Source of the DNA: Myxococcales bacterium
GTDB taxonomy: Bacteria > Myxococcota_A > Polyangia > Polyangiales > Houyiibacteriaceae
Reading direction: 5' to 3'
Assembly (NCBI GenBank): GCA_029861865.1
Contig: JAOTYL010000004.1
Span: 186,001 to 250,000, forward strand
DNA: 64,000 bases
Shown: in pieces, positions 11,181 to 17,801 of the stretch
How the letters are laid out: every line of letters begins with the position of its first letter
Position numbering within the stretch: the stretch's first letter is position 1
The notes under the pieces: generated by a model
Databases searched by the model: none
What the model was told of the DNA's origin: nothing
The model's input: the letters and a program-made list of their open reading frames with translations, nothing else
Translations under genes and position numbers: made by a program

Positions 11181-11255
11181 GCGGGAGTAACTCAGCGGTA
11201 GAGTGCAACCTTGCCAAGGTTGAAGTCGTGGGTTCGAATCCCATTTCCCGCTCCA
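11181..11255 (+). tRNA. tRNA-Gly (GCC anticodon)
   Basis: The 75-base gene folds as a cloverleaf. The acceptor GCGGGAG pairs with TTCCCGC (one G-U), the anticodon arm is CAACC-TTGCCAA-GGTTG with anticodon GCC, the T arm contains GGTTCGAATCC, and CCA is encoded at 11253-11255. It is the attachment site of the element that follows. Confidence 0.96.
11211..11233 (+). repeat. Left attachment repeat within tRNA-Gly
   Basis: The 23 bases start TTGCCAAGG and end GTCGTGGGT. They are the anticodon loop, 3' anticodon stem, variable loop and 5' T stem of the intact tRNA. Identity with the copy at 17779 stops exactly at both ends. Confidence 0.8.
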
Positions 11256-11262
11256 AAAATCG

Positions 11263-12444
11263 CTAGTCGTTGCGGGTGGTTTGGCGACGGCTGACGTTTC
11301 GAGCGTCGTCCCCAGGCTGGGAACCTTCCACCCGATCTTCCACTTTGCGACCGTCGACCAGCGCTAGCGCGCGTTCGACGGCGCTCTGCTTCTCATCGCG
11401 CTCGATGTGTGAGTAGTGCAGGAACATTTCCTCCGTCTCGTGGCCGATCATCGAACGCGTGATCGCGCCCGAGGCCACTTGCCGGAGCAAATTGTTCCAG
11501 GTGCGGCGAAAGCCGTGGAGGGTAAAGCGGTCGGCAACGCCAGCCGCTTTGAGAGCTCGCTCAAGGGGCTTTCGGAGCGAGGCATTGCGTCGATGGGTCC
11601 CGACGCGACTCGGAAAGAGCAGGCCCTCGGAGAGCCCTAGGGCCTGCTTTCTGACGAGCCGCTGCCGGTGTTGCTTCAGCACTGTCTTGAGTGGCGGCGG
11701 AAGAGGGACGTCTCGGACCTTGCCGGTCTTCGTCGTGCCCACGCGCCCCTGCCACTGGGAGCGCCGGATCCAGATCACGTTGGCATCCTCGTCGATGTCG
11801 TCCCACCGGAGCGCTGAGACCTCGCCGAAGCGAGCGCCCGTGAGCGCCATCGTCAGGAACAGCGGGTACCAGTCCGGCTCGTGTTCGCGAAGGTAGGCCA
11901 GGACCCGCTGCAGGTCTTCGGGCTTCAGCCGGTTCCCGACCGGTGGGTTCTCCGGAAGCGTTCGCACCCGAGCACAGGGGTCCCGGGGCAGTCCGAGATC
12001 GGCCTGAGCGTCCCGGAGCAAGGCCCGGAGCACCCGCAGCCGCGAGTTGACCGTGCTGGCTTTCGCGTGTTGGGCATCGCGCCAGAGGATCACGTCCTGC
12101 GGCGAGATGGCGTCTACGTAGAAGTCCCCCAAGGCAGGTAAGATGTGGCGGTCGAGCATGCCCGCGTACTTGTCCCGCGTGGAGGGCTTAAGAGTGGGAA
12201 TCTTCCCACGCATCCACGAGCTCGCGTATTCGCCAAGGCGAAGCCGCTGTCGTGGGGTCGCGCCGCTCGAAAGCAACTCGGCTCGAAGAAGCTCCCGTTT
12301 GGAGTTGGCTTCGGCCATGTTGGCGGCGGCGATCACTTGCTTCTGGTCCTTCTTCTTGCTTGTCTTCGGGTCGATCCAGGTCACTCTCACTCGATAGCGA
12401 CCCGACGACAGGCGTTCGATTCCCGGATACCGAGATTTGCTCAT
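11263..12444 (-). CDS. Tyrosine recombinase/phage-type integrase
   Basis: The 393-residue protein has an N-terminal AP2-like arm-binding part (SGRYRVRVTWIDPKTSKKKDQ), a SAM-like core-binding domain (residues about 75-160) and a catalytic domain with the R-H-R-Y set: Arg in ALTGARFGEVSAL, HGFRRTW, GHETEEMF and Tyr in LHYSHI. The open frame extends upstream, but ATG 12444 is chosen because GGGAGGAG lies six bases before it and the following residues start the family's usual sequence. It lies eight bases from the tRNA 3' end and should recombine the repeats at 11211 and 17779. Confidence 0.92.
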   Translation of the reverse strand: MSKSRYPGIERLSSGRYRVRVTWIDPKTSKKKDQKQVIAAANMAEANSKRELLRAELLSSGATPRQRLRLGEYASSWMRGKIPTLKPSTRDKYAGMLDRHILPALGDFYVDAISPQDVILWRDAQHAKASTVNSRLRVLRALLRDAQADLGLPRDPCARVRTLPENPPVGNRLKPEDLQRVLAYLREHEPDWYPLFLTMALTGARFGEVSALRWDDIDEDANVIWIRRSQWQGRVGTTKTGKVRDVPLPPPLKTVLKQHRQRLVRKQALGLSEGLLFPSRVGTHRRNASLRKPLERALKAAGVADRFTLHGFRRTWNNLLRQVASGAITRSMIGHETEEMFLHYSHIERDEKQSAVERALALVDGRKVEDRVEGSQPGDDARNVSRRQTTRND

Positions 12445-12691
12445 TGGCTCCTCCCGTCCCGGACGTTGCGTACCGATGCGGAGCATACCGCTGACACCCG
12501 TCGATGAGCCAGCGGTCGAGCGTCGAACGGCGAAACATCAGAGTACGCCGTGCACCGCGACCGTCGGGTGTCAGGACGCCGCGGCTGACGAGAGAGCGGA
12601 CACCCGACGGCGTCAGCCCGAGGAATCCCGCGGCCCTGCGACAGTTCAGCCATGCGTCGTCGTCCCATGGCGCCGTCATCGTGGCTTGCAA
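12188..12691 (-). CDS. Helix-turn-helix excisionase-like protein, 3' part overlapping the integrase
   Basis: Residues about 14-66 form a MerR/excisionase-type winged helix: LNCRRAAGFLGLTPSGVRSLVSRG, then RRTLMFRRSTLDRWL. Such small proteins steer integrase toward excision or recognise element DNA. The gene is just upstream of the integrase on the same strand, the usual place. Its frame does not stop before the integrase but runs 257 bases into it, in another frame, giving 167 residues where about 70-100 would be normal. The last 85 residues are probably not selected; a lost stop or frameshift is likely. The start could also be the ATG at 12679. Confidence 0.6.
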   Translation of the reverse strand: MQATMTAPWDDDAWLNCRRAAGFLGLTPSGVRSLVSRGVLTPDGRGARRTLMFRRSTLDRWLIDGCQRYAPHRYATSGTGGANEQISVSGNRTPVVGSLSSESDLDRPEDKQEEGPEASDRRRQHGRSQLQTGASSSRVAFERRDPTTAASPWRIRELVDAWEDSHS

Positions 12692-13214
12692 CTAGAGAGA
12701 TCGATTGCGTTCACACGATCATTATCGGTATTGCCGCCGACTAAGTTGCATGTGCTCGACCGCTTTTTTCCTCTGCAGCGTGTGACTCTCAGTGCCAGCG
12801 AGTGACAGAAAGTGACTACATGGGACAACATGGGACCCAACTTGTTGGGGCAAGGCATAGTTTTGGCAGACACCAAAACTGCAAGCGCGTCGCGAGGACG
12901 TCTCTCACGTCCTCGCTTGGGCACTTGGGGAGCGCGCTCAACGCCTTCGGCTTATTCGCGCATACAAGCGCCAGAGCAAATAGTAAGTTCAAGCCGCTGT
13001 CTCGGATCGCGAGACCCCCAAGAAAGACACGACAGCGCCGCCGCGGTTTGCGATACTTTGCATAGGGGTGGATCGAGTGAGAAAGGCAACGGTAGTGCCT
13101 TTAGCCCTTGGGCCCACTCTGCGAACCGAATTCCGCCGTACTCGATCGCCGCGATTCACGATGTTGTCGGCCGGCGGTTCAACTGGCTACCCTGATAGGG
13201 GTGGGACCTCGGCG
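12692..13214. other. Gene-poor stretch inside the element
   Basis: These 520 bases between the excisionase-like gene and the first propeller lipoprotein hold no convincing gene in any frame. The one structured part is the set of short direct repeats near 12801-12836. The last 60 bases resemble the sequence upstream of the second lipoprotein (14806-14865), so the duplication of those genes included their leader. Confidence 0.5.
12801..12836. repeat. Short direct repeats with 10-base period
   Basis: AGTGAC occurs at 12801 and 12811, and ACATGGGAC at 12818 and 12828. Both pairs are spaced 10 bases, one helical turn, as expected of a protein-binding array. A weaker AGTGCC is at 12791. They lie about 110 bases upstream of the excisionase-like gene and might be integrase-arm or regulator sites. 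Confidence 0.45.
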
Positions 13215-17646: not shown

Positions 17647-17648
17647 GC

Positions 17649-17695
17649 TTAACGTCGTCCATCTTCCACCCAACCTTCCACTTTGCAGGGGACAC
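17649..17695 (-). pseudogene. Relic of an integrase 3' end
   Basis: On the minus strand GCAAAGTGGAAG, then GGGTGGAAG and GGACGACG, repeat the last part of the integrase gene (11308-11347) with a few substitutions and an 8-10-base gap. The frame is kept: CKVEGWVED against RKVEDRVEG. Only the final codons survive. Confidence 0.5.
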
Positions 17696-17778
17696 CTCGG
17701 GACGGCACGCAACGCCACGGGACTCTATGTGGTTGATGTTGTTGAATTTCCCGAATGGTGTTTTGGGCTAGGAGAATA

Positions 17779-17801
17779 TTGCCAAGGTTGAAGTCGTGGG
17801 T
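17779..17801 (+). repeat. Right attachment repeat, tRNA-Gly fragment
   Basis: This is an exact 23-base copy of the middle of the tRNA-Gly gene (11211-11233) without its flanks. The following bases (GTACTCGG) do not continue the tRNA, so the displaced 3' half is missing here. Confidence 0.8.

Follow-up and report, generated by a model that had tools for sequence, protein, structure and literature searches.

The tRNA-Gly(GCC) gene of the genome studied here (G000) is occupied by an integrative element of about 6.57 kb (11211-17778/17801), which we read, with a probability of about 0.78 and on the basis of sequence comparison, as a relaxase-less, oriT-bearing integrative element (iOriT) that belongs to a genus-specific tRNA-Gly(GCC) family and heads a CIME-like cassette array. 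Having a predicted transfer origin and no transfer enzyme, the element probably hitchhikes on neighbouring elements. An earlier note on this DNA had described a single element in the tRNA gene; the site-specific element proved real, but it belongs, as a single unit, to an array system found across the genus and also carries the predicted oriT.

Sequences and features

The window is the whole stretch analysed, 64,000 nucleotides of contig C23 (G000:C23:186001-250000), and positions refer to it unless a contig or locus is given. The 75-bp sequence of the tRNA gene was searched in 58 relatives, an order-wide set including same-genus MAGs; all relatives are draft genomes, many with short contigs, and the genus genomes are MAGs. 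The ORFs of the element were scanned with Pfam, NCBIfam and PHROGs, tRNA genes were located with ARAGORN and Rfam, and defence genes with PADLOC, whereas recombinases beside oriT-like copies were identified by Pfam on selected ORFs. The features of the locus are the following:

9557-11098, + strand: LolC/E-type permease gene (FtsX and MacB_PCD domains), left chromosomal flank, beside the tRNA locus in sister species
11181-11255, + strand: intact tRNA-Gly(GCC) gene, attL (ARAGORN; Rfam RF00005)
11211-11255, + strand: 45-bp attachment core running from the anticodon loop to CCA, the same 45 bp being repeated in sister-species arrays
11263-12486, - strand: tyrosine integrase gene, 407 aa (Phage_integrase, E=1.5e-18; Phage_int_SAM_3; phrog_1 integrase, E=1e-69)
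11325-11348, + strand: pair of repeats read as left arm-type sites, CTTCCACCCGATCTTCCACTTTGC, 22/24 identical to the right-arm copy and overlapping the 3' end of the integrase gene
12188-12691, - strand: putative excisionase-like HTH ORF, upstream of the integrase gene and overlapping it (HTH_17 near the N-terminus, E=8.5e-4, under the curated cut-off; MerR-like phrog_2474)
12832-12961, + strand: structured 130-bp segment, predicted oriT, shared with relaxase-bearing elements of the genus
13224-14612, + strand: cargo lipoprotein A, beta-propeller-like, repeats of about 52 aa (spacing about 156 nt; relative in a G017 cassette, 44% identity)
14875-17643, + strand: cargo lipoprotein B, repeat domain and choice-of-anchor-Q C-terminal region (NF041518, E=2.6e-21)
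17662-17778, + strand: conserved 117-bp right arm with repeats read as arm-type sites, CTTCCACCCAACCTTCCACTTTGC, the same sequence preceding nearly every core copy of the genus
17779-17801, + strand: distal attachment core, shortened, attR (exact 23-mer; arm alignment)
17800-17850, no strand assigned: relic of a 70-bp palindromic insert splitting the distal core in the T-loop (comparison with sister species)
19728-20741, + strand: methyltransferase gene, first shared chromosomal gene on the right, following the tRNA or array in G007, G010 and G018

The attachment core and the integrase module

The 23-mer TTGCCAAGGTTGAAGTCGTGGGT is present without mismatch at 11211-11233, inside the tRNA gene, and at 17779-17801, both on the + strand and 6,568 bp apart, as had been reported from the sequence. 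In 100 dinucleotide shuffles no copy appeared by chance, even when three mismatches were allowed. The first base of the repeat is tRNA position 31, the start of the anticodon loop TTGCCAA, and lies within the palindrome AACCTT-GCC-AAGGTT; the proposed crossover at the anticodon loop is well supported. The description of the attachment repeats as 23 bases long, on the other hand, was only half right: the exact repeat exists, but the native core in sister species is 45 bp, corresponding to the tRNA 3' half, and the distal copy in the window is cut at 23, the first part of that core. The tRNA gene at attL is composed of a chromosomal 5' half and a 3' half from the element. Altogether, the locus shows an intact tRNA gene, a displaced 3' fragment in the same orientation (23 of 45 bp) and an integrase gene within the interval (11263-12486), the layout of a tRNA-integrated island. 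Among the 46 tRNA genes found in this genome, glycine is represented by GCC, TCC and CCC genes, one each, the gene at 11181-11255 being the only GCC gene.

The integrase noted next to the tRNA was confirmed as a tyrosine recombinase by its Pfam match, and its ORF is separated from the tRNA end by seven bases. Orthologues 83-86% identical lie beside tRNA-Gly(GCC) in G005 and G007 and, in G010, at tRNA-Gly(CCC); in these three genomes and in the window the integrase is full length and conserved. The gene is truncated in G018 and degraded at tRNA-Gly(GCC) in G010. Orthologous integrases in named records belong to MAGs labelled Myxococcales, Polyangiaceae or Deltaproteobacteria. A search of plasmids with the integrase gave, among the matches listed, only integrases 26-29% identical.

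In units of the genus that bear an integrase gene, the motif CTTCCAC occurs once or twice, at +70/+82 counted from the core, and in the window 22 of 24 bases there equal those of the right arm. These motifs are missing from integrase-less cassettes except G005 a3, which opens with a remnant of about 80 bp of an integrase unit, and they are read as arm-type integrase sites. Since the left pair overlaps the integrase coding sequence, part of its conservation may be coding. The predicted attP junction is ...GGCTAGGAGAATA/TTGCCAAGG...CTCCAAAAATCGC...

The locus in relatives

The LolC/E gene and the tRNA on the left are common across the genus. The gap between the tRNA and the methyltransferase gene measures about 1 kb in G010 (with a degraded integrase gene only), 4.5 kb in G018 and 8.4 kb in the window, and no perfectly empty tRNA-Gly(GCC) site was found among the relatives examined. 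The contents of this gap differ among relatives. Two objections foreseen in the earlier note, that close relatives might share the gene order while lacking repeat and integrase and that the copy at 17779 might be a mere tRNA paralogue, do not hold; that copy has the genus-typical 117-bp arm attached to it. An integrative element in tRNA-Gly, as originally claimed, is supported by the orthologous integrases at the same tRNA in sister species and by the occurrence of the 117-bp arm at about 30 sites.

The surroundings vary in other respects. In G018, the closest relative, the LolC/E gene and the tRNA are separated by a short-chain dehydrogenase gene absent from the window (L114:2519-3439), so the left flank is also variable. 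To the right of the element, positions 17862-19585 encode a 542-aa protein with no Pfam or NCBIfam match; the gene is missing at this locus in G018, G007 and G010, has copies 82-87% identical in DNA elsewhere in G002, G005, G006, G011 and G013, and is perhaps a single-gene mobile module. Further downstream, 26644-32301 contains a 1,885-aa ORF with many CGDG...DGNxxxGDGCxxxC repeats and an anchor-like C-terminal end, and the sequence at 49.1-50 kb is 70-76% similar to sequence adjoining the arrays in G005 and G006.

Cassette arrays and cassettes shared within the genus

Besides the gene itself, the search of the 58 relatives revealed many copies of exactly positions 31-75 of the tRNA, in same-genus genomes. 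These core copies are on the tRNA strand wherever both share a contig, and are often in series: at the same tRNA, sister species have arrays of up to seven units of 1-11 kb each. In contig C25 of G005, the tRNA at 37514 is followed by cores at 42677, 44719, 48631, 54281, 61662, 73125 and, in split form, 75280, giving seven intervals over 38 kb, of which only the first contains an integrase gene and the oriT segment. An intact integrase gene was observed only in the tRNA-proximal unit, which is also the only one with an Xis-like ORF and the predicted oriT, and the downstream cassettes have no integrase. Such att-flanked units without integrase or transfer genes, placed beside an integrase unit with the same sites, are the arrangement described as CIMEs and accretion.

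The left flank of the cores is conserved over about 117 bp, typically ending in GGCTAGGCGAATA right before the core, and has a sharp upstream boundary at CTTCCACCCAACCTTCCAC; this arm is missing from two or three copies (G005 a2, G002 a1 and, in part, G004b). The 162-bp site formed by the 117-bp arm and the 45-bp core was found some 30 times in the genus, in most of its genomes, the copies being mostly 83-96% identical. From the conserved arm and core at the copies, a unit can be defined as the tRNA 3' half, usually with a terminator-like hairpin and T-run, followed by cargo, the 117-bp arm and the core.

Near-identical cassettes were detected in divergent genomes. G007 and G017 share a cassette 99.7% identical over 1,150 bp, and G016 and G017 one 98.3% identical over 3,389 bp, as compared with about 77-86% (mostly 82-86%, or around 84%) for the available backbone stretches between cassette-sharing genomes. 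Mis-binning or contamination could inflate or mimic cassette sharing between MAGs, but the cassette common to G007 and G017 stands in two differing contexts. In addition, the tRNA-Gly(CCC) gene of G010 contains a complete element of 3,094 bp and has its own 3' half duplicated. This element carries an integrase gene and a ParD/ParE-like pair (judged by eye), and joining its flanks in silico restores tRNA-Gly(CCC).

The split distal core

In the window, the standard arm at 17662-17778 is followed by a core that ends after 23 bp. At the same T-loop position the core is split by a 70-bp palindromic insert in G003, G004, G005, G006, G012, G017 and G018, the arm being lost in G018. The repeat is therefore 23 bp rather than 45 because a decayed insert of this kind splits the distal core. 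In-silico joining of the flanks gave back tRNA-Gly(GCC) at the intact cores of G005 and G003 but no tRNA at split ones, the window's included. With a split core at the only GCC gene found, excision should harm the cell, and the window element is probably locked in; to judge from the codons read by tRNA-Gly(GCC), its loss would be lethal. The excision envisaged in the earlier note has to be qualified in this sense, since at a damaged distal site it should cost the cell its tRNA.

Split distal cores were located at L113:1281-1390, L115:7863-7970, L124:1196-1305, L129:3462-3568, L168:1-191 and L169:5360-5519. The sequence downstream of them differs in each species, and for this reason the idea that the split site is a fixed chromosomal end is unsupported as a rule.

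A predicted transfer origin shared with relaxase loci

Between the integrase module and the cargo lies the non-coding 130-bp segment, which was found in 14 of the 58 genomes, all of this genus, and in no other genus of the order. Two features are constant among its copies, the hairpin AGTTTTG...CAAAACT and the tail CTCAACGCCTTCGGCTTATTCGC, and a second stem shows some compensatory changes; the copies stand beside differing recombinases, including large serine recombinases, at tRNA-Gly, -Thr, -Leu, -Arg and -Met genes and at tmRNA. In the relaxase loci, the segment ends 38-43 bp upstream of the start of a TraJ/NikA-like gene, with a MobP relaxase gene next; for L262, L264 and L271 the automated start differed, and the ORF table puts the TraJ/NikA-like gene about 39 bp from the segment. 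This position matches that of oriT in traJ/nikA systems of the RP4/R64 type. The locus on contig C20 of G000, whose copy the window segment matches by model and not by close identity, encodes a TraJ-like protein and a relaxase exceeding the curated TraI_MobP cut-off (NF041893); for the TraJ/NikA-like similarity in the relaxase loci the TraJ model gave E=1.8e-7.

The segment is retained, in either orientation, in elements without a relaxase gene, the window's included, and within array contigs it is confined to integrase units. These properties, together with its linkage to relaxase loci, mean that it is best read as an oriT. An integron attC site was also considered and set aside, given the linkage to relaxase genes and the lack of correctly ordered R'/R'' motifs by eye.

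No relaxase or T4SS was detected among the ORFs of the element scanned with Pfam and NCBIfam; it thus differs from an ICE, which has both of its own, and corresponds, with an integration module and a predicted oriT, to an iOriT in the terms of PMC11389934. The C20 locus is a candidate iMOB helper. A VirB4-type T4SS ATPase (PF03135) was found in none of the contigs of G000 and once in 19 genomes searched, a scarcity that points to a transient conjugative helper.

Other copies of the segment in G000 are at C6:240826, C8:277660, C16:102216 and 102345, and C20:1151. A second group of MOBP relaxases, with no such segment nearby, is present at C6:4769-5119 and C12:97869-98220 of G000 and at other loci of the genus. 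L219 (G000:C6:238500-243500) contains a tRNA-Met element of about 4.0 kb with a large serine recombinase, an oriT-like segment and a beta-helix lipoprotein; a 17-bp repeat of the tRNA 3' end lies 4.0 kb away.

Cargo

As had been noted, the element carries surface proteins and no defence genes: lipoprotein-type signal sequences were recognised by eye in both cargo proteins, and PADLOC gave no match in the element. The start regions of the two genes (13149-13311 and 14800-14962) are 83% identical, indicating a tandem duplication. Relatives of the cargo occur within G017 and G011 cassettes, the tRNA-Met serine-recombinase element and a tRNA-Thr element, those of lipoprotein B in the tRNA-Met, tRNA-Thr and G011 elements; elements that use different sites thus have cargo in common. 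Cassettes elsewhere in the genus encode a penicillin amidase, a subtilase, an M48 peptidase and a Fic protein, as well as metabolic operons (operons by eye).

Proposed mechanism and alternative explanations

In the mechanism that we propose, the tyrosine integrase would recombine within the anticodon loop and, by resupplying the tRNA 3' half, leave the tRNA gene intact. Each new integration beside the tRNA would displace older units, building the arrays of sister species, and the downstream cassettes without integrase or oriT would probably be moved in cis with the tRNA-proximal unit or by its integrase. MobP relaxases of sister elements, such as that of contig C20, would act in trans to nick the predicted oriT, and the conjugation channel would come from a transient helper. 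Sequence shows the element with its core and arms, the arrays, the sharing of cassettes, the linkage of the predicted oriT to relaxase genes and the loss of the tRNA on joining in silico; that the integrase is active, that relaxases act in trans and that excision kills the cell are inferences. A more ambitious version is tentative: a genus-wide, tRNA-anchored integron-like system in which the integrase/oriT unit acts on cassettes of standard format (tRNA half and terminator, cargo, one-armed 162-bp site), while the insert in the terminal core serves as a ratchet against array loss. Losing a whole array would be costly because the only tRNA-Gly(GCC) gene would be destroyed.

It is possible, though we consider it doubtful, that the element is a decayed genomic island, now immobile, with the integrase gene and oriT as relics and the arrays of relatives as ancient vertical accretions. 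The split distal cores of the window and other genomes, and the damaged integrase genes of G018 and of tRNA-Gly(GCC) in G010, are consistent with decay, and the integrase gene is 93% identical in DNA between G018 and the window against 87% for the backbone, as under vertical descent. Full-length integrases conserved in four genomes, cassettes nearly identical between divergent genomes and the occupation of a second tRNA gene of G010 by a complete element speak against it. Less probable is that the 130-bp segment serves the relaxase operon as a promoter/operator or as a small structured RNA, and is not an oriT. Its fixed distance from the TraJ/NikA-like gene and its RNA folding, with a few compensatory changes, would fit such a role. 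Arguments against it are its retention, in either orientation and beside tyrosine and serine recombinases, in elements that lack any relaxase gene, the absence of an Rfam match and the oriT-like position.

We regard as improbable a phage satellite or prophage remnant, of the kind proposed for tycheposons, in place of a passenger of conjugation. The tRNA site, the phage-type integrase and the small size recall such elements, but the PHROGs scan found only the integrase, HTH/DNA-binding proteins and one family of unknown function, with no capsid, packaging or other phage gene; the integrase has no close relative in IMG/VR (best match, 27% identity), and the segment is linked to relaxases. Least probable of all is an extension of the element to the right as far as 26544. 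The 22-mer at 26523-26544 resembles tRNA positions 53-74 with three mismatches and takes up the tRNA sequence where the copy at 17779 leaves off, yet that copy already has the right arm of the family and the split-core insert, no arm sequence is present at 26523, and shared backbone genes start at about 19.6 kb. The 22-mer itself is either a chance match or a decayed att remnant. A displaced tRNA half split by an 8.7-kb insertion was likewise rejected, as sister species show the 70-bp insert at that point and the backbone starts where stated. The preferred reading remains an iOriT at the head of a cassette array.

Significance and comparison with known systems

From a single repeat in the window, the analysis arrives at a mobile-gene system of uncultured Myxococcota that can be tested, with its integrase, core and arms defined, and it bears on the exchange of surface-protein and metabolic genes in bacteria without an evident conjugation machine. 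The pairing of predicted oriT and relaxase lets iOriT elements be recognised, and the window element may be a natural example of retention in the chromosome through damage to the element's own site of exit.

Like the iOriT elements of PMC11389934, the window element has an integrase and a predicted oriT without relaxase or mating-pair genes, and would need a relaxase-bearing sister (iMOB) and a conjugative helper; unlike them, it shares its predicted oriT with mobilizable elements at several tDNAs in one genus, and not with a known conjugative helper. The att-flanked integrase-less units in tandem with an integrase-bearing element resemble the CIMEs and tandem accretion of Streptococcus (PMC5704250), although here the units measure 1-11 kb, each have a single conserved arm and can number up to seven in an array; to judge from the arm and terminator at their ends, they resemble cassettes of a standard format more than products of random decay. 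The ssrA islands of Dehalococcoides (PMC3146451) are also arranged in tandem downstream of an RNA gene, bounded by repeats of its 3' end, and only some of them have an integration module, but they use a serine recombinase and a 20-bp T-loop repeat in place of a tyrosine integrase and a 45-bp core at a tRNA-Gly anticodon loop. In the additive flexible islands of Alteromonas (PMC4119200) and Methylophilaceae (PMC10872708) a conserved tRNA collects cassettes bounded by tRNA 3' repeats; the present system differs in that its recombination sites, arms and integrase, and a predicted origin of transfer, are recognisable. Anticodon-type sites are common in Islander (PMC4383910), whose tandem criterion is one integrase per island, and the cassette arrays would not be resolved as arrays by it.

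With integrons the system shares one integrase by a fixed site and an exchangeable cassette array whose members end in a common sequence. The integrase does not belong to the IntI type (TIGR02249, 22 bits vs a cut-off of 265), the sites are a 117-bp arm and a tRNA half instead of attC, whose imperfect palindromes fold as single strands, and the integrase units would themselves move, so the likeness is one of layout only. With tycheposons the element has the tRNA site, the tyrosine recombinase and cargo in common. Each part of the system has known counterparts, and their combination is a variant.
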